Source: Bacilli bacterium
GTDB taxonomy: Bacteria; Bacillota_I; Bacilli_A; RFN20; CAG-826
Length of the DNA stretch: 64,000 nucleotides
Direction of reading: 5' to 3'
Assembly: GCA_024408105.1 (NCBI GenBank)
Contig: JAKSVG010000003.1
Span: 1-64,000, forward strand
The notes beneath the pieces are model-generated. The model worked only from the letters and a program-made list of their open reading frames with translations. It had not been told where the DNA came from and did no database searches. Below, piece by piece: positions 4,629 to 56,924 of the stretch; position 1 is the stretch's first letter; every line of letters begins with the position of its first letter. The translations under genes and the position numbers were made by a program.

Positions 4629-7027
4629 GTTACGATCATAAGAAAATTGAACAAAAATGGTTAAAGGTTTACGAAGATGAAAAACCGTTCTTTTGCGATA
4701 CATATGATTTTTCAAAACCTAAATACTACGTATTAGATATGTTTCCTTACCCATCTGGACAAGGATTACATGTCGGCCATCCAGAAGGCTACACTGCAAC
4801 AGACATTGTTGCACGTATGAAAAGAATGCAAGGATACAATGTTCTCCACCCAATGGGTTGGGATTCCTTTGGTCTTCCTGCTGAGCAATTTGCAATTAAA
4901 AATAATCGTCATCCTGACGAATTTACTCAAAAAAATATTGCTAATTTCAAACGTCAAATAAAATCACTTGGATTTTCTTACGATTGGAGCAAAGAAATTG
5001 CGACAAGCGATCCGAGTTATTATAAATGGACGCAATGGATTTTTACTGAACTTTATAAGAATGATTTAGCATATGTTTCAAATGTCCCTGTAAATTTTTG
5101 CCCAGAACTTGGAACAGTGCTAGCAAACGAAGAAGTTATTGATGGCAAAAGTGAACGTGGTGGATTCCCAGTTATTAAGATGCCAATGAGACAATGGGTT
5201 TTAAGCATCACAAAATATGCTGATAAACTTCTTGAAGGACTTGATGGATTGGATTGGCCAAAATCAACTCTTGCTATGCAAGAAAATTGGATTGGAAAAA
5301 GCTTAGGTGCAGAAATTACATTCAAAGTTTTTGGCACTAATAAATCATTTAATGTATTTACAACTCGTGCCGATACATTGTTTGGATGTACATATTGCTG
5401 TTTAGCGCCTGAACATCCGTTAGTCAAAGAATTAGCAAGTAAAGAGCAACTTCCTGAAGTCTTAAAATACATTGATTCCATTAAGAGCAAATCTGATATG
5501 GAAAGAACAGAACTTAACAAAGACAAAACAGGAGTATTTATTGGAGCGTACGCTATTAATCCTATCAATGGTAAAAAGGTCCCAATTTTTGCTGCTGATT
5601 ATGTTTTATATGGTTATGGCAGTGGCGCAGTTATGGCTGTTCCAACACATGATCAAAGAGATTATGAGTTTGCAAAGAAACATAATTTAGAATTCATTCA
5701 AGTTCTTGAAGGAGATGTTTCAAAAGAGGCAATGGAATTAGACGCAAAACATATAAATAGTGATTTTGCAAATGGGATGAATATTGCCGACGCAAAGAAA
5801 GCGATCATTTCTAAACTCGAAACTCTTGGCGCTGGAAAAAGCAAAGTTAATTATAAATTAAGAGACTGGATATTCTCTCGTCAAAGATATTGGGGAGAAC
5901 CAATTCCTGTAACTTTCTTTGATGATGGAAAGGTTGAAACGCTTGATGTTAAAGAATTACCATTAACACTTCCTCAAATGGATAAATATGCTCCTAGCGG
6001 TGATGGATCATCCCCATTAAAAAATGCAACAAATTGGGTGAATGTTGATGTTGGTGGTAGACATGGTATTAGAGAAACTAATACAATGCCTCAATGGGCT
6101 GGCTCATGCTGGTATTATATCCGTTATATTGATCCAAAGAATAATGATGCATTTGCTGATCCAAAATTAATAAAACATTGGTTGCCAGTAGATTTATATA
6201 TTGGTGGTGCTGAACACGCAGTTTTGCACTTACTTTATTCTCGTTTTTGGCATAAATTCTTATTTGATAAAGGCTATGTTTTCACAAGTGAGCCTTATAA
6301 AAAGTTATTCCACCAAGGAATGATTCTTGGAGAAAATAATGAGAAGATGTCTAAATCCCGTGGCAATGTAATAAATCCTGATGATATTGTCAATAATTAC
6401 GGTGCTGACTCTTTACGTTTATTTGAAATGTTTGCAGGACCATTAGAAGAAAGTTTTCCCTGGTCAACAACAGGCATTGCTGGTGCAAGACGTTTTATCG
6501 AACGTGTATATAGATTATATACTGATGAAGAATTTGTTAATAAAATGAGTGACGAAAACTCTCATGAACTTGATTTTGCATATAATGCAACAGTTAAAAA
6601 AGTTACATCTGATTTTGAAACACTTCAAATCAATACAGCTATTTCACAAATGATGATTTTTGTTAATGCATTATATAAAGCAAATAGCATCTATAAGCCA
6701 TATTTAGAAGGCTTTATTAAGATGTTCTCATGTGTATGCCCGTTTGTTGGTGAAGAATTATTTGAAAAATTGACTGGAAAACATCTAGTTGATTATGAGA
6801 AATGGCCTCAATATAACGAAGCCTGTTTGGTACTAGATACGGTCAAAATGGCTGTTTCTGTAAATGGTAAACCTCGTGGAATTATTGAAGTCAAAAAAGA
6901 TATCTCTGATGAGGAAGTTAAAAATCTTGCCTTAGAACTTGATGGTGTTAAGCGTCATATAGATGGAAAAGAGATTAAACGTATCATTGTTGTGAAAGGA
7001 AAAATTGTAAACATTGTCGCTATATAA
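4625..7027 (+). CDS. leuS: Leucyl-tRNA synthetase
   Basis: Charges tRNA-Leu. The 800-residue class I enzyme has the HIGH-type motif HVGH (in [18 protein letters not shown]), the CP1 editing insertion with TTRADTLFG and [12 protein letters not shown], a [11 protein letters not shown] core motif and the KMSKS loop ([10 protein letters not shown]). Its start codon overlaps the glgA stop (ATGA) and no T-box leader or terminator precedes it. Its expression therefore appears tied to the glycogen operon, unlike thrS, pheS and ileS here, which all have T-boxes. Confidence 0.97.
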
Positions 7028-7028
7028 T

Positions 7029-7793
7029 ATGAATAACTCTCATTTAATGGTTGATGTTGGAAATTCAACAATCAATTTTGGAATATTTGTTGATGGCAAA
7101 TTAGCACAATCTTTTAATGTTAAATCTGATATTGATCATGTTGCTAAATTGTCTACAATATTAGGCGATATTATCAAAGATAAAAGCCTTAATATCCGTG
7201 ATTTTGTTGGTGGTTTAATCTGCAGTGTTGTTCCTTCCTATAATAAGAATATTCATGACGCTATTTTAAAAACATTTAAAATCGATGTTCAAATTATGGA
7301 TCATTCATACTTTGATGATTTAAAAATTATTGCCGATAATCGAAAAGAAGTAGGCTTTGATTTAATTGCTGATGTTGTTTTTGCAAATACTTTTTCGCAT
7401 TATCCATGCTTAATTATTGATTTAGGTACAATCACAAAATATATTCTGGTTGATGAATGTGGCACTCTATCTGGCGTTTCATTTTGTCCTGGAGTTGAAG
7501 TCTCCTTTGATTCCATGAGAAATGCAACAGCTCAATTGCCGTCAATCGATAAAATAGAAAGGCCAAACAAGTTATTCGGCAACAATACCAATGAAGCATT
7601 AATTTGTGGCGTATTTCATTCCAATATTGGAGCAATTAAAGAATTTGCAAATAAAGCCGAATCAAGATATGGAAAAATTAAAAAAATTCTTACCGGAGGC
7701 TTATCTAAATATTTTGCTGATGAATTTAAAGATTTTATATTTGATGAAAATGTTACCCTTAAGGGTATTTACGAAATATACAAGAAAAATTGA
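7029..7793 (+). CDS. coaX: Type III pantothenate kinase CoaX
   Basis: Phosphorylates pantothenate, the first step of CoA synthesis. The ASKHA-type fold is marked by the phosphate-binding motif MVDVGNSTINFG near the N-terminus, IDLGTITKYI in the middle, CPGVEVSFDSM, and LTGGLSKYF near the C-terminus. The ATG at 7029, just after the leuS stop, gives 254 residues, matching the family length; a TTG at 7014 inside leuS would be less likely. Type III kinases are typically not feedback-inhibited by CoA. The last pathway step (CoaE) is fused to MutM elsewhere in the window. Confidence 0.93.
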   Translation: MNNSHLMVDVGNSTINFGIFVDGKLAQSFNVKSDIDHVAKLSTILGDIIKDKSLNIRDFVGGLICSVVPSYNKNIHDAILKTFKIDVQIMDHSYFDDLKIIADNRKEVGFDLIADVVFANTFSHYPCLIIDLGTITKYILVDECGTLSGVSFCPGVEVSFDSMRNATAQLPSIDKIERPNKLFGNNTNEALICGVFHSNIGAIKEFANKAESRYGKIKKILTGGLSKYFADEFKDFIFDENVTLKGIYEIYKKN

Positions 7794-22374: not shown

Positions 22375-22577
22375 AAAAAGCGCCCTATATAAGGACGCTA
22401 TTAACGCGGTACCACCTTATTTCATATCAGTAGATATGCTCTTGGTTATTCTCTTAACGCGAGAAACGCTAGATTTCTCTAGATGCTCGGAAGTAGTATC
22501 ATAAGTTTTCTCTTAGAAGCTTCACAGCAAGCGCTCCCTCTCTTGAAGAGAATTTGTCCTATGACGTGTCTTCGTCA
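22375..22577 (-). promoter_or_regulatory. T-box riboswitch of thrS (specifier ACT)
   Basis: The minus strand contains the T-box sequence AAGGTGGTACCGCG (22418-22405) followed by a terminator AGCGTCCT/AGGGCGCT and T run (22399-22375). The specifier is ACT (22497-22495, Thr), located by its match with the other two T-boxes here: codon followed by ACTTCCGAGCA. The 5' end TGACGAAGACACGT (22577-22564) is identical to that of the ileS T-box. Confidence 0.93.
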
Positions 22578-22588
22578 TCGCTAATAGT

Positions 22589-24643: not shown

Positions 24644-25909
24644 ATGGACTACATTTCACCAAAAGACGTATACGAAATAAGAATTGCTAGCTTGGTTAGC
24701 AATGTTGATAAGGATGTTATTATTGAACTTTATCAACCACTAATAGGCTCACTAGCTTCTGTTTTGTATTTGACGCTTCTTAAGCAAAAAAGAAACGAAG
24801 ATGATGATTCAATTGTTTTCACTCATGAACAGCTTCTTTCACTCACTCAAGTTAGCAGTGGAAATCTTCTAACTGCAAGGCATGCACTAGAGGGTGTTGG
24901 CTTATTAAGAACATATTTGAAAGAGTTTGAAGGTGAACGTTACTACATATATATGCTTTATGCACCAAAAACACCAAAAGAATTTTTTGATGATGTTTTA
25001 TTTAAGGGTTTAATGATTCAAGCAATTGGAGAAAAGGAAACAAAGCGTTTAGCTATGCATTATCGTGTTGATTTGGTCATTCCTGAAGAATTTAAAGAAA
25101 TAAGTGCTTCATTTGTTGATGTATTTAATCCAAATTATGATGATGCTTCCTTTAGGAAAAATATAAATAGTTCAATAGTTGGTCATGAATCAGGAAGAGT
25201 AAAAATTTCGTTTAATTACGATTTATTCTTTAAGTATATTGAAACAAATTCTCAAATTATAACTTCATCATTTTTGAAACGTGAATTAAAGGAAGTTGAA
25301 CGACTTGCAGCATTGTTTGGCTTAGATGAAAAGACAATGGCTGTAATTGTTATTGATGAATATCGTGGCGATAAAACGCCTCATCTTGATTTTGCATCAA
25401 TTGCCGAAAGAGCGAAAGAACAGATCAGATATCCGCATTTGCAAAGCAAAGTTGCATCCAAAAAGAGTCAGGTTAGTGGAGATGGCATTCTTGTTCAGAA
25501 GATTCATCTTATGGAGAAAACATCACCCGCCGATTGGCTTAAGTTACTACAAAACAACACTAAGGTAGCTAGTAGTGATTTAGATATTGTTAATAATTTA
25601 TCAAGTGATTATGGATTTTCTAATGGAGTAATTAATGCCATAACAGATTATGTTTTAACAAAAAATGACAATATATTGTCAAAAAAATATTGTGAAAAGA
25701 TTGCGTCTAGTCTAGCTAGAGAAAGAGTTGAAACAGCAATTGATGCAATGAATTACTTGAACAAAATTTCTCTAGGAAACAAATCAAAAAAACACATACC
25801 TGTTAAAAAGATTGAAGAATCTACTAAACCTGAACCATCCCAATCCACAATTTCTGATGAAGAAATGGAAGATATATTTAGCATGTTTGATAAAAAAGGA
25901 GGCAAGTAA
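24644..25909 (+). CDS. dnaB: DnaB/DnaD-type replication initiation (helicase loading) protein
   Basis: Bacilli DnaB works with DnaD and DnaI to load the replicative helicase. The protein shows the DnaB N-terminal winged-helix start (VDKDVIIELYQPLIGSLASVLYL) and a C-terminal DnaB/DnaD region (MEKTSPADWLKLL, NGVINAITDYVL). From the ATG at 24644 it has 421 residues; a GTG at 24611 lies upstream of the predicted -10 and is less likely. It is followed 1 nt later by dnaI. The C-terminal acidic tail is typical of the family. Confidence 0.88.
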   Translation: MDYISPKDVYEIRIASLVSNVDKDVIIELYQPLIGSLASVLYLTLLKQKRNEDDDSIVFTHEQLLSLTQVSSGNLLTARHALEGVGLLRTYLKEFEGERYYIYMLYAPKTPKEFFDDVLFKGLMIQAIGEKETKRLAMHYRVDLVIPEEFKEISASFVDVFNPNYDDASFRKNINSSIVGHESGRVKISFNYDLFFKYIETNSQIITSSFLKRELKEVERLAALFGLDEKTMAVIVIDEYRGDKTPHLDFASIAERAKEQIRYPHLQSKVASKKSQVSGDGILVQKIHLMEKTSPADWLKLLQNNTKVASSDLDIVNNLSSDYGFSNGVINAITDYVLTKNDNILSKKYCEKIASSLARERVETAIDAMNYLNKISLGNKSKKHIPVKKIEESTKPEPSQSTISDEEMEDIFSMFDKKGGK

Positions 25910-25910
25910 A

Positions 25911-26828
25911 ATGAAAGAACTTAATATTGAAAGCTTTGAAGATATTATTACCCCAGAATCCAATATGAAATCCTTAATTAGTAAACTAGTCAATGATTTA
26001 AGAGAAGATATTGAAGTTTATGAAAAAATCAAAGCATTAAATGTTACTGTAGGAGAAGTTAGAGAAAATATCGCTAAACTTACAGATTTTAAAGAAGATT
26101 ACAATTATTGTAAAAATTGCCCTGGAATTGATAAATGTTCTAAATCAACTCCTCATATTTCAATGCATCTAAAAAAAGAAGGAGATTATATTTCTGCTTC
26201 ATATGAGCCTTGTCCAAGAATGATTGAACAAATTGCTGTTAATCGCAAATATTTATGCGCTGATTTTCCATCTGAGTGGAAATCATCAACCCTAAGAACA
26301 CTCGACTTAACAGAAACACGTAAATTAGCAATTAAGGAATTTGCAAAGATTATCAAAGGCCAATCCGAAAGATGGATTTATGTTACTGGAAATCATAAAA
26401 CTGGAAAATCTTTCATGCTCGTAACATTTGCGAATGAATTCGCTTCTCAAGGTAAAGGCCAAGTAGCAGTGGTCAATTCAACAAAGTTGATTCAGTCACT
26501 AGCTGATTTATCGTATAAAGATAAAGAAGAATTCACTCGTCAAATGGTTGCTTTATCTAATGTTCCGTTACTTGTTTTTGATGACTTTGGTGAGGAATAT
26601 AAAAATGAATATATACGTGATCAAATTGTTTTGCCTATTCTCACTGAAAGAGAGCACAATTCAAAATTAACATTTTTCACAAGTGAATTTACAATTAGTG
26701 AAATAAAGAAACTTTACTCGGTCGGAGTAGCAAGTGGAGAAATTCGTGGAAGACAATTAGAAAAAATTCTAACCACAATGTGCGGTAAGGAATTTGATTT
26801 AACAGGTGCTTCTATTTACCGAAAATAG
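25911..26828 (+). CDS. dnaI: Primosomal helicase-loader ATPase DnaI
   Basis: AAA+ loader that opens the helicase ring. The ATG at 25911 has a strong AAGGAGG upstream and gives 305 residues. The N-terminal zinc-binding domain carries CKNCPGIDKC and later CPRM. The ATPase domain has Walker A GNHKTGKS, Walker B LLVFDDFGEE and sensor-like TFFTSEF. It is cotranscribed with dnaB. Its last 17 nt overlap the end of the convergent mutM::coaE gene. Confidence 0.95.
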   Translation: MKELNIESFEDIITPESNMKSLISKLVNDLREDIEVYEKIKALNVTVGEVRENIAKLTDFKEDYNYCKNCPGIDKCSKSTPHISMHLKKEGDYISASYEPCPRMIEQIAVNRKYLCADFPSEWKSSTLRTLDLTETRKLAIKEFAKIIKGQSERWIYVTGNHKTGKSFMLVTFANEFASQGKGQVAVVNSTKLIQSLADLSYKDKEEFTRQMVALSNVPLLVFDDFGEEYKNEYIRDQIVLPILTEREHNSKLTFFTSEFTISEIKKLYSVGVASGEIRGRQLEKILTTMCGKEFDLTGASIYRK

Positions 26829-28206
26829 TTTCTAATTTCTTATATAAACTAGCAACATCCTTATCATTATTGATTATGGCTGTTGCTTTTTTCTTATCTT
26901 CTTGAAGATAATATGATTCGTTCAATTTGATGTAAGAATCATAATCTCCATTGCGTTTTATTAATCTTTCTTTTTGAATGAGCGGCGATACTTCAATTAT
27001 AAAAATATCATTGCACAATTCTTCAATATGTGATTGGAAAATCATTGGAACTTCTAATGCGACCTTTTTAGTTTTATCTAACGAATGTATAAAGCTTTTT
27101 ATATATTTATATAATTCATCGTATAAATATGATTCGAGTTCCTTTTTTTTCTTTGGATTTTTAACTAAAAAATCTTTTAAATATTTTCGATCAATATCAT
27201 TATTTTTAATAACTAAAGATGGAATAATTTTTTTAATTTTTTCTTGGAATAAATTATTTTTATAAAATTCATGAATAATTTTGTCGGAATCTAACAATAT
27301 AAATCCTTTTTTTGCCAAATATTCTCCAACTAACGATTTTCCAGAAGAAATTGCTCCAGAAATGCCTACGACATATGGCAAGCATTTATTGACTTGGCAA
27401 TGTGGGCAAAAAGTTGTTCCTCTTGAATTAACAAGAATTTTGGATAAATTGCGACCACATGTTGGACATGGCTTATCTTTTTTACCATAGACTTGTAGTT
27501 GAACTTGAAAATTACCGCTTACGCCTTCTTGAGGATGATAACTTTTAATTGTTGATCCACCTGATTTAATTGCTTTTGTTAAAACATCTCTTGATGCATT
27601 TAAAATGGCTTTTAACTCATTAAGTGAAACTGCATTAGCTGGTGTTAATGGATGCAGTTTTACTTGAAATAAAACCTCATCAACATAGATATTACCAAGT
27701 CCAGACATGATTGATTGGTCAAGCAAAGCTTGTTTTATTGAAATTTTCTTGTTTTGAAAAGCTTTCACCAATAATTTCTCATCATTTAACATGAATGGGT
27801 CAGGACCAACATTACATATCGGCTTATTAGACATATATGTCGATTCTTTATCAACAACCATGCGTCCAAATCTTCGTGTGTCATTATAGGTTAAAAAAGT
27901 GCCGTCTTTAAAATAAAATATAACCAAATCATGTTTATTTAAAGGAGTGTTTTTTTCTTGCAAGAAAAATTTTCCCTCCATTCTAAGATGAGAAATCATT
28001 ACAACATCGTTTGTTAAATGAAAAATAATAAATTTTCCAATTCTTGTAATATTTTTGATTGTTTGATTTTTTAATGAATCAACAAAAAAATCAGTGTCGC
28101 AATCGATTGTTTGTTTTCTTTTTATTTGGACATGATCAATCGTCTTGCCATCAACAAGGCGGTTTAAGATACCAACTATAGTTTCAACCTCAGGGAGTTC
28201 AGGCAT
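26812..28206 (-). CDS. mutM-coaE: MutM (Fpg) DNA glycosylase fused to CoaE dephospho-CoA kinase
   Basis: One 464-residue ORF carries two complete enzymes. Residues 1 to about 275 are formamidopyrimidine-DNA glycosylase: catalytic Pro after Met (MPELPEVET), SGLGNIYVDE, and a C-terminal zinc finger CPTCG...CPHC. Residues about 277-464 are dephospho-CoA kinase: P-loop GISGAISSGKS, LDSDKIIHEF, and the lid region IKERL-type QKERLIKR with IINNDKDV. Only a few residues separate them, close to where MutM normally ends. Bacillus has mutM and coaE as close neighbours downstream of polA, so the fusion probably arose by loss of the intervening stop. The start lies 2 nt after the polA stop. Confidence 0.93.
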   Translation of the reverse strand: MPELPEVETIVGILNRLVDGKTIDHVQIKRKQTIDCDTDFFVDSLKNQTIKNITRIGKFIIFHLTNDVVMISHLRMEGKFFLQEKNTPLNKHDLVIFYFKDGTFLTYNDTRRFGRMVVDKESTYMSNKPICNVGPDPFMLNDEKLLVKAFQNKKISIKQALLDQSIMSGLGNIYVDEVLFQVKLHPLTPANAVSLNELKAILNASRDVLTKAIKSGGSTIKSYHPQEGVSGNFQVQLQVYGKKDKPCPTCGRNLSKILVNSRGTTFCPHCQVNKCLPYVVGISGAISSGKSLVGEYLAKKGFILLDSDKIIHEFYKNNLFQEKIKKIIPSLVIKNNDIDRKYLKDFLVKNPKKKKELESYLYDELYKYIKSFIHSLDKTKKVALEVPMIFQSHIEELCNDIFIIEVSPLIQKERLIKRNGDYDSYIKLNESYYLQEDKKKATAIINNDKDVASLYKKLETIFGK

Positions 28207-28208
28207 AA

Positions 28209-30812
28209 TTATTTACAATCGTACCAAGTACGACCATATCCTCCGTCTACTAACAATTTAACATCGAGTTCCAATGCATTTTCCATGATATCCTTTACTA
28301 AAGGTAAAATAATATCTTTTTCTTCGTTAGGAACTTTAAACAAAAGTTCATCATGAATTTGCAAGATCATCTTTGTTTTTAATTTTTTCTCACGTAAAGC
28401 ATTATTGACTTTTATCATTGCAATTTTGATTAAATCTGCCGCAGTACCTTGAATTGGAGCGTTCATTGCTGCACGGCGAGCAAATTCTCTAACTTGATAA
28501 TTGGAATCATGAACTTCACGTAAATATCTTCTTCTACCAAGGAGAGTTGTGACGTAGCCATCATTTATAACATTTGTTGAAATTTGTTGAAAATATTGTC
28601 CAATTTCAGGGTATGCATTATAAAATGCATCTATTATTTCTTTTGCTTTTTTAGGAGAAGTACCAATTTGCTCGGCAAGACCCCAATCTGATATGCCGTA
28701 TATTATTCCAAAATTTACCGCTTTTGCTTTACGTCTCTCTTCACTTGTTGGATTGTCTTTATGAAAAACTTTTTTAGCAGTTGATGTATGAATATCTTGA
28801 TTTGATGTAAATACTTCTTGCAGTGTCTTACATTTTGATAAGGAGGCGAGGATTCGTAACTCAATTTGTGAGTAATCTAATGACAAAATCGAATAATTTT
28901 CGTCTTTATAATAGAAAGCTTTTCGAATCATTTTGCCCTCTTCATCGCGAACCGATATGTTCTGCAAATTAGGTTCGCTAGAAGATAATCGTCCTGTAGC
29001 TGTTAAAGCTTGGTTAAACAAAGCGTGTATTTTTCCATCCTCATAAACATGTGATGACAAACTTGTAACATATGTTGAAAGAAGCTTTGCGTATTTTCTA
29101 TACAAAAGAATTGCTGGAACAATAGGATGAAGATTTTTAATTTCATTTAGTACCTCAACAGAAGTAGATGTTTTTCCACTAAAAGTTTTTAATCCTAATT
29201 TATTGAATAGTATTTCTCCAACTTGCTTTGGCGAATCTATATTAAATTCTTCACCAGCAAGTTTATAAACTAAATCTTGAGCATTTTTAAGATTAATCTT
29301 AAAAACTTCTCCCATTTCTTCTAATTTATTTATATCTAGAGGAAAACCTTCTATTTCCATATCTGCTAAAACATCACAAAGTTTTATATCTACATTTGTA
29401 TATAGATCTAGACATTGTAATTTATCTATTTCAGCACAAGCCTTGGTTGAACATTTTTTACATGAATATGCGATTTTGCATGTTCTTAATGGGTTTGAAT
29501 TATCAAATAGGGAAAGAGTGTCATCCTTGTTAGATGAGATATTATAGCCAAAGAACCTCATTGTCGAGTCAACATCACCAATTAATGAAGTATCAAGAAT
29601 ATATATTGCTAGTAATGCATCAAATTTTAAACCATTAATTTGAATATTTTCATGAGATAATGCAACTTTTATTGCTTTATAATCAAAACAGAATTTTTCA
29701 ATTTTATTATCAGCCAATATATCCAAGATATATTTATCTTTTTTAGCATCATCTAAAGAGATGTAGTAATTGTTCATGTTTGTTGAAATTGCTATTCCAT
29801 AAATTTGACTTAGATTATAGTTTCCAGGCTCTATATCAAGAGCAATTCCGATTGAATCTTCTAGTTTTATATTTCTGAAGGTTGTAATTTTTTCAAATTC
29901 AATTTCAGTCTCTTTTGATTCACTTTTTTGCAATTTGTTTGGCAGCCTATTCAAAAATTGTTTTAGTTCATAAATATTACAAAACTCATTAATTTTGTTG
30001 AATTCATATCCTTCGTAAACCGTATCGTTTACATTAAAAGGCAATTCAACGTTTATATCTATTGTTGCTAAATCATAGCTCATTTGTCCTAGTTCTTTAT
30101 TTTGAATTATTGATTCTCCAACCTTAGTTTTAAATGTTGGAGCGGCTTCAATAATTCTTTCAAAAGAGCCATATTCTTGGATGAGTTTTATTGCTGTTTT
30201 TTCTCCAATACCAGGTATTCCAGGGAGATTATCGCTTGAATCACCTCTTAATCCTTTATAATCAATTATTTGAATCGGTTTAATTCCGTATTGTTCAAGC
30301 ATAGCTTGCTCTGTCATAACATTTATGTTAGACATTCCGGTCTTAATTAAGTTAATTGTTATTTTATCGTCAATAAGTTGAAGATAATCTTTATCCGAAG
30401 TATAGATAATTACATTATAACCTTCTTTTCCCGCTAGCTTTGCGTATGTCCCACATAAATCATCTGCTTCATATCCTTCTTTTTCATATGTGAATATGTT
30501 TAATGATTTTAATAGCTGCCTAACAATTGGCATTTGAATTTTTAAATCTTCTGGGCATTCCTTGCGATTAGCTTTATAGTCTTTATTTTTTTCGTGGCGG
30601 AATGTAGGCTTTCCTGTATCAAAGCCAACGAATAATAAATCCCCATCTTTCAATTGAACGAGTATTTTATTTAGCATATTTGCAAATGCAAAGATTGCAT
30701 TTGTTGGAACGCCTTCTTTGTTACGCATAATTGAAGGGTTAGGACCGTAAGCGGTTGCGTAGTAGGCTCTAAAGAGCAAAGAGTTACCATCAATTACATA
30801 AGCCTTAGCCAT
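28209..30812 (-). CDS. polA: DNA polymerase I
   Basis: Fills gaps and removes RNA primers. The 867-residue protein has the 5'-3' exonuclease (AYVIDGNSLLFRAYY, GDSSDNLPGIPGIGEKTA), a 3'-5' exonuclease-like middle domain that looks degenerate, and a complete polymerase domain (TGRLSSSEPNLQNI, DYSQIELRILA, RRKAKAVNFGIIYG, QIHDELLF). The middle domain contains an unusual cysteine group (C445, C451, C454, C459, C467). The start overlaps dnaE by 8 nt, so it is coupled to the replicase gene. Confidence 0.96.
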   Translation of the reverse strand: MAKAYVIDGNSLLFRAYYATAYGPNPSIMRNKEGVPTNAIFAFANMLNKILVQLKDGDLLFVGFDTGKPTFRHEKNKDYKANRKECPEDLKIQMPIVRQLLKSLNIFTYEKEGYEADDLCGTYAKLAGKEGYNVIIYTSDKDYLQLIDDKITINLIKTGMSNINVMTEQAMLEQYGIKPIQIIDYKGLRGDSSDNLPGIPGIGEKTAIKLIQEYGSFERIIEAAPTFKTKVGESIIQNKELGQMSYDLATIDINVELPFNVNDTVYEGYEFNKINEFCNIYELKQFLNRLPNKLQKSESKETEIEFEKITTFRNIKLEDSIGIALDIEPGNYNLSQIYGIAISTNMNNYYISLDDAKKDKYILDILADNKIEKFCFDYKAIKVALSHENIQINGLKFDALLAIYILDTSLIGDVDSTMRFFGYNISSNKDDTLSLFDNSNPLRTCKIAYSCKKCSTKACAEIDKLQCLDLYTNVDIKLCDVLADMEIEGFPLDINKLEEMGEVFKINLKNAQDLVYKLAGEEFNIDSPKQVGEILFNKLGLKTFSGKTSTSVEVLNEIKNLHPIVPAILLYRKYAKLLSTYVTSLSSHVYEDGKIHALFNQALTATGRLSSSEPNLQNISVRDEEGKMIRKAFYYKDENYSILSLDYSQIELRILASLSKCKTLQEVFTSNQDIHTSTAKKVFHKDNPTSEERRKAKAVNFGIIYGISDWGLAEQIGTSPKKAKEIIDAFYNAYPEIGQYFQQISTNVINDGYVTTLLGRRRYLREVHDSNYQVREFARRAAMNAPIQGTAADLIKIAMIKVNNALREKKLKTKMILQIHDELLFKVPNEEKDIILPLVKDIMENALELDVKLLVDGGYGRTWYDCK

Positions 30813-33800
30813 TTATTAAATCCTCCAATTTCGAAATTTCTTTAACAACTAATTCGTCAGTTGATTGTTTATAATAACCATTAATTAGTATTGAAGTATT
30901 CTTTTTTAATGCATCAAATGATTTTTGGTATGCATCGGTGAATATAGTTATCTCAAGTTCACCTGAATCATCATATATATTCGCAAAAGCCATAGGCTTT
31001 CCGTTTTTTGTTTTAATTGTTTTTACGTTGCGAATAATGCAAGCAATTTTTATATTGCTCGAAGAGTATGGTATATCAGCAATGCTAATAGTTTTCACAT
31101 TTTTTAATCTATCTTTGTATATTTGTAATGGTGATCCAGAAATCATTAACCCTAGAGAATCAAATTCTTTATTTAGGTTAAATATCGAATCATCTTTACA
31201 TCTTTGCATTGAAGGTTTAGGGAACATGGAGATATCAATAATTGTTTCACCATTTATTCCTCCAAGCATTGATGCATAATTTAGTGCCGTTGGAATGTTT
31301 AGCCTTAAACTTGCTCTTGAGCATTCTAATTTATCAAATGCGCCTGCATCAATCAGCGAAATAATTTGCTTACTATTAATTTTGTACTTGTTCATTCTTA
31401 CAACAAAGTCAAAGAAATCAGTGAAAGGTTTTTCAGCTCTTTCTTTAATAATTGCATCTGATGTAATATTCATTATTCCTTTAACTGATGTGAGTGGAAA
31501 TACTATAGTATTTCCTTTTACAATGTATGAGTTTGTTGAGACATTAATATCCGGGTTAGCAACCTTAATTTTTGATGCTTTCATTTCAGATAAAGTAGTG
31601 GAGAAATGCTCGGAATTTGAATTCGTTAATATTGATGCATAAAATTCTTTAGGATAATGTGCTTTCAAATATGCCATACGACAAGTTAGTAGAGCATAGC
31701 CAATTGCATGTGATTTATTAAAACCATAATCTCCAAATTTATAAATTAATTTATAAACATCGTCGGCTTCTTTTTCACTATAGCCATTTTTAATTGCACC
31801 TTCAATAAACTTTGCTTGATATGACGCAAGTTTTTTTGCATCTTTTTTAGATATTGCTCTTCTTAATAAATCAGCTTCAGCAAAAGAAAATCCAGCCATC
31901 TTATTTGCAATTTGCATTACTTGTTCTTGATAAACTAGTACTCCATAAGTTGGACTTAAAATTTCTTCTAGGACTTTTGAGGCATAATATTGTTTTGTTT
32001 TTTTAAATTTGTGATTTGCGTATTCTTCAATATTATCTAAAGGACCAGGCCTATATAAACTTATTAAGGCAACGACATCCTCAAATGTTGATGGTTTTAA
32101 AATCTTAATAGATTTTCTCATGCCAAAAGATTCAATTTGGAATAAACCCATTGTTTTTGCTGATTTAATTTGTTCTAAAGCTTTGGGATCATCATAAGGT
32201 ATTTCATCACGATCGATTTTAATTCCATAGTTTTTATTGATTCGTTCTATACAATCATCAACAATAGTTAAATTGGTTAAACTCAAAATATCCATTTTAA
32301 GAAATGATTGTTCTTCCAAATAATCTTTTTCAAACTGCTCGATATATTTACCATCATAATCTTTGATTAATGGAATGCTTTCTTCTAATGATTCGTCATT
32401 TATCACAATACCTGCAGCGTGCATTCCAAGTTGCCTTGGAAATCCTTCGATTTTACTTGCTAACGAAACAATTTCTAAATAATATTTGTCCTCATTTACT
32501 AATGCTTTAAATTCCGGAACGCGCTTATAAAGCTCTCTAAGAGTTAGTTTTTCATCTTCTTTTCGAATTAGTTTTGTGAACAATTCTATATCTCTTTCTG
32601 GATAATTAAAAACTGACCCTATATCTCTTAGAGCTGCTTTTGCTCCAAATTTTTGAAATGCTATTATTTTGGCAACATTTTTGTTCGAGTATTTCCTGCG
32701 GATGTATTCAACGACATCATCTCTATTTGAATCTTTAAAGTCAACGTCGATATCTGGCAATGTTTGCCTTCCTTTATTTAAGAAACGTTCAAAAATTAAA
32801 TTATATTTAATAGGATCACCTTGAGTTATTCCTAATACATAAGATACTAGCGAGCCAACTGCGCTGCCTCTTCCAGGACCAACGGCTATATCGTTATTAC
32901 GTGCAAAATCAATATAGTCTTTGACAACAAGAAAATAGTCACTGTAACCCATTGAAGAAATTACTTGTAGTTCATTATTCAAACGTTCGTTATATTCATT
33001 GATTTCTTTATTAAGTTTTTTAAGACCTTCAAATGCAATTTTTTTCAAATATTCATCGCTTGTTAAACCAAGGTCATTTTTGAACGAAACCATTTTTCCT
33101 CTTTTTTGAACAAATTCAAAATCGACTTTATTTGCTATTTCAATAGTTAATGATATTTCACTTTCTTTAAACAATTTATTAACAAAGTTAATATCATATA
33201 AATATTCGTTTCCTTTAGAACTTTTATCAGTCAATTTTTCTTTATTTGAGACAGCATTTAGAATTTTGCAAACAATTTCGTCTTCCGGCTTAACGTATTT
33301 AACGAAAGGGAATGCGACAAGCGGATAGCCATGATCGAAGGCAAAATTCCTAATTGAATTCATATAATCTTCGTTATTTGGCTCCAATCCAATATAAAAA
33401 TCATCTATTCCTCGTGATAACTTTGCAAATTGCTTTGTCATATCTACATCAAATCGATTGTTTGAAGAGACAATAACAATTAAATCTGAAAAATATTGTT
33501 TTAAATCAGAAAGATTTCTTTTTTTGTCTTGAATCGCTAAGGATAGTTTTAGGATATTTTTGTAACCTTCTTCATTTTTTGCAATGAATGTAAATAAAAG
33601 GTTATCAATGATAAAATCCTCTCCAATTATTGGCTTTAATGATTTTTCTTTGCACAAAGAAACAAATTTAGGTGCTCCAGAAAGAAGTTCAAAATCTGTT
33701 AAAGCGATAGCAGGATAAGAAAAAGATTTAGCTTGTTTAACATAATCTTCTAAACGAAGACCGCTTTTCAATATTGAGTATCCGCTATACGCATGTAGAG

Positions 33801-33813
33801 GCACAAAGTTCAT
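30805..33813 (-). CDS. dnaE: DNA polymerase III alpha subunit, DnaE type
   Basis: Replicative polymerase subunit of the C family. The 1002-residue DnaE-type protein carries an N-terminal PHP domain, the catalytic PDIDVDF motif, GPGRGSAVGSLVSYVLGIT, LGMHAAGIVI, a helix-hairpin-helix region and a C-terminal OB fold (IACIIRNVKTIKTKNGKPMAFANI). The PHP metal site looks degenerate (LHAYSGYS instead of HxHS, and LTDFELL instead of LTDDH). In Bacilli DnaE acts beside PolC, which is not in this window. Start ATG lies 6 nt from a -10 hexamer with no RBS. Confidence 0.95.
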   Translation of the reverse strand: MNFVPLHAYSGYSILKSGLRLEDYVKQAKSFSYPAIALTDFELLSGAPKFVSLCKEKSLKPIIGEDFIIDNLLFTFIAKNEEGYKNILKLSLAIQDKKRNLSDLKQYFSDLIVIVSSNNRFDVDMTKQFAKLSRGIDDFYIGLEPNNEDYMNSIRNFAFDHGYPLVAFPFVKYVKPEDEIVCKILNAVSNKEKLTDKSSKGNEYLYDINFVNKLFKESEISLTIEIANKVDFEFVQKRGKMVSFKNDLGLTSDEYLKKIAFEGLKKLNKEINEYNERLNNELQVISSMGYSDYFLVVKDYIDFARNNDIAVGPGRGSAVGSLVSYVLGITQGDPIKYNLIFERFLNKGRQTLPDIDVDFKDSNRDDVVEYIRRKYSNKNVAKIIAFQKFGAKAALRDIGSVFNYPERDIELFTKLIRKEDEKLTLRELYKRVPEFKALVNEDKYYLEIVSLASKIEGFPRQLGMHAAGIVINDESLEESIPLIKDYDGKYIEQFEKDYLEEQSFLKMDILSLTNLTIVDDCIERINKNYGIKIDRDEIPYDDPKALEQIKSAKTMGLFQIESFGMRKSIKILKPSTFEDVVALISLYRPGPLDNIEEYANHKFKKTKQYYASKVLEEILSPTYGVLVYQEQVMQIANKMAGFSFAEADLLRRAISKKDAKKLASYQAKFIEGAIKNGYSEKEADDVYKLIYKFGDYGFNKSHAIGYALLTCRMAYLKAHYPKEFYASILTNSNSEHFSTTLSEMKASKIKVANPDINVSTNSYIVKGNTIVFPLTSVKGIMNITSDAIIKERAEKPFTDFFDFVVRMNKYKINSKQIISLIDAGAFDKLECSRASLRLNIPTALNYASMLGGINGETIIDISMFPKPSMQRCKDDSIFNLNKEFDSLGLMISGSPLQIYKDRLKNVKTISIADIPYSSSNIKIACIIRNVKTIKTKNGKPMAFANIYDDSGELEITIFTDAYQKSFDALKKNTSILINGYYKQSTDELVVKEISKLEDLING

Positions 33814-56711: not shown

Positions 56712-56723
56712 TTATTGTTGCGT

Positions 56724-56924
56724 TGACGAAGACACGTTCTTTACCCCTCTTAGCGAGATGAGGATGGTGGAAGCTCATCACATTGTAAGGAATATCACTT
56801 CTGAGCATGCTTTCTGAAAATAGTAGGAAAACCGGATTTCGCCGTTATCGAAAATTAAGTGCTATAACTTTATGTTATAGAATTAAGGTGGTACCGCGTG
56901 AGGAGCGCCCTTAAGGCGCTTTTT
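56724..56924 (+). promoter_or_regulatory. T-box riboswitch of ileS (specifier ATC)
   Basis: Contains TGACGAAGACACGT (56724-56737), identical to the thrS T-box; specifier ATC (56794-56796, Ile) followed by ACTTCTGAGCA; T-box AAGGTGGTACCGCG (56885-56898); terminator AGCGCC-cttaa-GGCGCT and T run (56904-56924). No clear promoter was found between the nuclease gene and the T-box. Confidence 0.95.

Follow-up and report, generated by a model that had tools for sequence, protein, structure and literature searches.

A MutM-CoaE gene fusion in Bacilli: a probably bifunctional protein, likely born by stop-codon loss within an operon

The window analyzed here, a stretch of 64,000 nt from a metagenome-assembled genome of a Bacilli bacterium (GCA_024408105.1, contig JAKSVG010000003.1), contains a reading frame in which a DNA repair glycosylase, MutM/Fpg, is followed by dephospho-CoA kinase, CoaE, without an intervening stop codon. 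Is this arrangement a genuine gene fusion, is it translated as one chain, and why would two enzymes without a shared pathway be joined? The first-pass annotation had proposed a MutM-CoaE fusion in the single frame 26812–28206, and both the Pfam domains and the NCBIfam equivalogs bear this out; what that annotation did not give is the strand, which is minus (Table 1). Translated, it gives a complete MutM/Fpg (residues 1–271) followed, after six residues, by CoaE (residues 278–451). All four Pfam domains of the fusion protein scored above their curated cut-offs, with 80.2 versus 27 bits for PF01121 (CoaE), and the scores also exceeded the cut-offs of the equivalog models TIGR00577 (fpg; 289.5 bits, cut-off 203.3 bits) and TIGR00152 (dephospho-CoA kinase; 96.7 bits, cut-off 65.55 bits), as well as that of PRK01103 (MutM/Fpg; 291.2 versus 212 bits). 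The MutM zinc finger (residues 245–271) is internal, as had been predicted, given that CoaE follows from residue 278 onward. From the last zinc cysteine, C270, to the first glycine of the P-loop there are 13 residues, about six of which are linker.

Table 1. Features of the fusion gene and of its neighbors in the window.
Feature	Coordinates	Strand	Remarks
mutM-coaE fusion gene	26812..28206	-	464 codons, ATG start, TAG stop; full-length homologues found
MutM N-terminal catalytic domain, residues 1-116	27859..28206	-	Pfam Fapy_DNA_glyco; P2, E3, K58, M76, R111, F113 invariant in 26 fusions
MutM H2TH domain, residues 134-222	27541..27807	-	Pfam H2TH
MutM zinc finger, residues 245-271	27394..27474	-	Pfam zf-FPG_IleRS; internal in the fusion; C247, C250, C267, C270 invariant
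Linker VNKCLP, residues 272-277	27376..27393	-	No ATG or GTG; no start backed by a Shine-Dalgarno sequence
CoaE (dephospho-CoA kinase) domain, residues 278-451	26854..27375	-	Pfam CoaE, TIGR00152, structure model
CoaE P-loop GAISSGKS, residues 284-291	27334..27357	-	K290 invariant
CoaE DxD motif, D306-S307-D308	27283..27291	-	D306 varies within the window's clade, D308 is invariant
CoaE lid segment, residues 418-447	26866..26955	-	Shortened; Arg-x-x-x-Gln lost, N429 conserved instead
polA	28209..30812	-	Directly upstream of the fusion, 2 nt gap, same operon
dnaE (DNA polymerase III alpha)	30805..33813	-	Overlaps polA by 8 nt; first gene of the run dnaE-polA-mutM-coaE
dnaI-like helicase loader	25812..26828	+	Convergent; overlaps the 3' end of the fusion by 17 nt

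The source assembly is fragmented (1.03 Mb in 46 contigs, 73% complete), which might point to an assembly or base-calling artefact with loss of a stop codon at the junction. However, about 19 independent genomes of the genus contain the same unbroken frame, as do scores of others in the order and the class, and the start signal of CoaE is gone in the fused genes, so that the artefact was rejected, with a probability that we consider close to nil. The full-length fusion protein was matched in 54 of the 59 relatives searched. Nearly all of the same-genus genomes match the whole query in one frame, with no inner stop and with 44–55% identity, and the search among relatives for the two-domain architecture, as recommended in the first-pass annotation, also returned the fusion, full-length or near it, from most genera of the same family and from several other families of the order. 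Of the 279 genomes of the order, 253 gave a CoaE match; among the approximately 150 best matches listed, all but seven lie in frames of more than 330 aa, a length that the fusion would predict, and two of the seven shorter frames end at contig ends. Fused frames recur in separate families across the class, named examples being Acholeplasma equifetale ATCC 29724, Candidatus Onthovivens merdipullorum, and several MAGs labeled ‘Bacillales’ or ‘Bacilli’. A sequencing error at the junction, or a fusion missing from the relatives combined with a second coaE gene, had been named beforehand as evidence that would speak against the fusion. What was found is that the relatives are fused and that the 73% complete source assembly yielded neither a second CoaE nor a second H2TH-domain protein. 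MutM-CoaE is a real gene fusion that is carried by almost all genomes of the genus and by the greater part of the order, and that is present in hundreds of related Bacilli genomes.

Several observations were made alongside these searches. Two or more CoaE matches occur in a few genomes of the order (G406, G462, G463, G465, G565, G572, G044, and G056). One genome, G378, carries two different fusions (L142 and L143), and with one of the two clustering with a different family, this bin is probably contaminated. In genus g159, which comprises small genomes of the family that contains Acholeplasma, MutM lacks an adjoining CoaE (L180 to L188), unlike in the fused relatives.

Whether the fused gene gives rise to one chain or to two can be judged from the junction. 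Of 76 split genes, 64 carry a start codon together with a Shine-Dalgarno-like sequence ahead of the CoaE P-loop, compared with just 2 of 70 fused genes, and in 51 of the 70 fused genes no start codon at all is present at the junction. Therefore, an internal start yielding a separate CoaE was rejected. Across the fusions, the spacing between the last zinc cysteine and the P-loop glycine varies from 9 to 18 residues. Given that the separate start and ribosome-binding site of CoaE are gone in the fused genes, CoaE is most likely made solely within the fusion; proteolytic cleavage of the chain into two proteins may occur.

In the window, a tight run of genes, dnaE-polA-mutM-coaE, ends with the fusion, which stands head-on to dnaB-dnaI. 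Stop-codon loss, which the first-pass annotation had put forward as the origin of the fusion, indeed appears likely because there are relatives in which the two genes abut in the same frame and are separated by one stop. Bacillus, on which the ancestral arrangement had been modeled, is less well suited to this purpose: in Bacillus proper, about 600–870 nt separate mutM and coaE, whereas in many other Bacilli the genes abut or overlap. Split relatives with coaE behind mutM, in the same frame and after a single stop, include streptococci, Floricoccus, Shimazuella, and the loci L040, L042, and L047; in other split relatives, mutM and coaE overlap by a few bases. The three loci belong to family f8 of the window's own order, and the single TAA between their mutM and coaE is either ancestral or the trace of a fusion that was split again.

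To follow the two states through the class, trees were built on both domains, with 147 rows in a quick search and 67 rows in a careful search. The fused/split label changed 15 times in the former and 11 times in the latter, and at least 8 of the 11 changes are forced by well-supported branches of the 67-row class tree. None of the 200 bootstrap trees had a single change, and a single origin of all fusions was accordingly rejected, the count alone being compatible with gains as well as with losses. The window's clade is fused throughout (17 of 17, support 100/97 in the careful tree). The sampled Bacillales and Lactobacillales proper are all split, which makes fusion by stop loss the natural direction for most of the changes. 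Apparently, the fusion did not arise once but probably repeatedly.

The first-pass annotation had also stated that both active sites are intact. For the MutM half, this is the case, with all of the residues present: P2, E3, M76, R111, and F113, which were aligned to 1l1t, as well as the zinc cysteines are invariant across 26 fusions. The fusion chain was modeled with a pLDDT of 88.7 and a pTM of 0.81, and the MutM part of this model matches 3jr5 with a Z of 34.9. For close fused pairs, dN/dS of the MutM half is 0.015–0.134, indicating purifying selection. The known MutM/Fpg proteins (TIGR00577; 1l1t, 1r2y, 3jr5) and the MutM half have in common the whole sequence and fold, Pro2/Glu3, the Met/Arg/Phe reading head, the H2TH domain, and the four-Cys zinc finger. 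The difference is that the zinc finger is C-terminal in the known proteins, whereas in the fusion it is followed, after six residues, by a kinase.

For the CoaE half, the claim of an intact active site stands in part. K290 (the P-loop Lys) and D308 (the catalytic Asp) are in place and, like R418, are invariant in 26 fusions, but in the window's clade the lid Arg-x-x-x-Gln is lost, and the DxD motif varies at its first Asp, which is mostly Ser or Asn. Modeled alone, the CoaE domain has a pLDDT of 91.5 and matches 2grj with a Z of 21.6 and an rmsd of 2.0 over 176 residues; the best 18 structures for this model are dephospho-CoA kinases or the kinase domain of CoA synthase, with Z from 21.6 to 14.8. 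The features shared with CoaE (TIGR00152; 2grj, 8dv0, 1jjv) are the fold, the P-loop, the catalytic Asp, the ‘VPLLFE’ segment, and the second Arg of the ‘RLxxR’ helix, whereas the attachment behind MutM and, in the window's clade, the shorter lid with its replaced Arg-x-x-x-Gln set the fused domain apart. In close fused pairs, dN/dS of the CoaE half is 0.06–0.26, so that the domain is under purifying selection, less tight than that on MutM, and its rate of evolution is two to five times that of the MutM half. With these ratios well under 1, pseudogene decay of the CoaE half was rejected. The suggestion that both functions are selected for in one chain is thus upheld by the purifying selection on each domain as far as the two functions are concerned, but not with respect to the single chain.

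The lid of the window's clade has been remodeled. In CoaE of Mycobacterium tuberculosis, Asp32, the counterpart of D308, is the general base, and Asp30, Arg36, Arg66, Arg140, and Gln144 lie around this catalytic residue and the phosphates of the substrate, as deduced partly by docking (PMC2765170). The lid pair Arg-x-x-x-Gln, which is typical of the CoaE family but lies outside its curated definition, was scored as [RK]-[ILVM]-x-x-Gln and was equated by spacing, not by structural superposition, with Arg140/Gln144, for which contacts to the substrate phosphates have been modeled. This motif was found in 72 of 77 split CoaE proteins and in 16 of 24 fusions outside the window's clade, but all 46 fusions within that clade lack it. 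In the latter, the segment from R418 to N447 comprises 27–31 residues rather than 32, and 41 of the 46 fusions share a conserved Asn, which is N429 in the window. The lid change was rejected as a consequence of fusion because other fused lineages mostly keep the motif; it looks like a replaced substrate contact. The loss of the motif in 46 of 46 proteins, the shorter lid, and the frequent Ser or Asn in place of the first Asp of DxD might also mean that the CoaE half of this clade has ceased to be an ordinary dephospho-CoA kinase, having changed its substrate, turned into a regulatory nucleotide-binding domain, or decayed. We consider this unlikely, as K290 and D308 are invariant, N429 has the appearance of a replacement and not of decay, selection is purifying, the score lies above the TIGR00152 cut-off, and the genome, which encodes CoaD, yielded no other CoaE. 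The CoaE of the window's clade could be an altered or weaker kinase.

The remaining CoA pathway was traced in the relatives. CoaD was found in 56 of 59 relatives, in 48 of them above the cut-off, and also in the source genome. The holo-ACP synthase (ACPS) domain is present in 24 of 31 genomes and in the source genome, and type III pantothenate kinase (PF03309) in 26 of 31 relatives and in the window at 7014–7793 (+). CoaBC (TIGR00521) was not found over the cut-off in any of the 31 relatives, 30 of which were without any match. As far as these profile searches can tell, the intermediate steps of CoA synthesis are either absent or divergent in these relatives. The presence of a single CoaE, of CoaD, and of the ACPS domain in the source genome suggests that CoA is probably made and used, in which case CoaD and the fused CoaE would probably finish it. 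Upstream of these steps, the cells might take up phosphopantetheine or might possess CoaB and CoaC as two individual proteins of divergent sequence (compare PMC8721197, PMC6593275).

Our preferred reading, to which we assign a probability of roughly 0.78, is that MutM-CoaE is a bifunctional protein that was born by stop-codon loss in the dnaE-polA-mutM-coaE operon and has been kept because both of its parts are needed. The stop codon would have been lost between the translationally coupled neighbors mutM and coaE, which would have tethered CoaE just behind the MutM zinc finger in one polypeptide. The N-terminal MutM/Fpg glycosylase-lyase would then excise oxidized purines, and the C-terminal CoaE would phosphorylate dephospho-CoA to CoA. 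Retention of the fusion would be due mainly to the need for each half and to the difficulty of reversal, not to cooperation between the two reactions.

Alternatively, the two halves might be functionally coupled, with CoaE or its ligands (dephospho-CoA, CoA, ATP) regulating or positioning MutM, or with an advantage of fixed 1:1 expression or of solubility. Such coupling would fit the way in which mutM and coaE have fused repeatedly, in one order and with short spacing (9–18 residues), as well as the long retention of the fusion within one order; moreover, an appended domain is needed for the folding of M. tuberculosis CoaE (PMC2765170), so partner domains can matter. Nevertheless, in many Bacilli mutM and coaE are coupled neighbors to begin with, split relatives manage, the linker sequence is not conserved, and there is no known pathway connection. 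Because the adjacency of mutM and coaE is shared across many Bacilli, repeated fusion is to be expected even without functional linkage, and we regard coupling as improbable. Its more specific form, in which oxidative DNA repair would be coupled to CoA metabolism through a lid adapted to MutM, with CoA precursors or ATP tuning the glycosylase or DNA-bound MutM tuning CoA synthesis, seems to us decidedly more doubtful still. By itself, the fusion is no proof of a link between the two functions.

Fusions of CoaE to other partners have been described. In Mycoplasma, CoaE is fused to a HAD hydrolase (HAD-DPCK; PMC8721197), which resembles the present case in that CoaE comes last, in its length of about 445 aa, and in its occurrence in genome-reduced relatives; its N-terminal partner, however, is a HAD-like hydrolase, whereas that in the window is MutM. 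CoaE is also a module of two-domain proteins in CoaE-UPF0157 of mycobacteria (PMC2765170) and in the eukaryotic CoA synthase PPAT-DPCK (2f6r), but CoaE is N-terminal with UPF0157 behind it in the former and is joined to its own pathway partner in the latter, and neither contains a DNA repair domain. The nearest earlier notice concerns phytoplasmas, relatives of Acholeplasma, for which a review lists one gene under both names, as CoaE but ‘annotated as formamidopyrimidine-DNA glycosylase’ (PMC3322544); a fusion is not described there. Beyond this remark, no description of a MutM-CoaE fusion was found among open-licence papers.

With the preferred reading of a bifunctional protein born by stop-codon loss, two enzymes without a shared pathway would have been joined several times over, seemingly for no other reason than that their genes are coupled neighbors. 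The split state, the state one stop away from fusion, and the fused state are all alive in one class, providing a system in which it can be tested whether fusion needs functional linkage. For the MutM-CoaE pair, ‘Rosetta stone’ reasoning, which takes fusion as a sign of a functional link, should be discounted. The fusion also sets an annotation trap: naming by the best model would give MutM and can miss the sole CoaE, so that CoA synthesis looks incomplete in many uncultured Bacilli. A. laidlawii has been reported to lack mutM (PMC3322544), and this absence could be the mirror image of the same trap.

Some minor observations concern the surroundings of the gene. Terminator- and promoter-like sites around the operon were no more common than in shuffled sequences. 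The tail-to-tail overlap between the fusion and the dnaI-like gene, which is 17 nt in the window (26812–26828), spans 17–29 nt in all 19 same-genus loci examined. Elsewhere in the window, two T-box leaders scored above the Rfam gathering score, at 22388–22587 (−) and at 56714–56915 (+).
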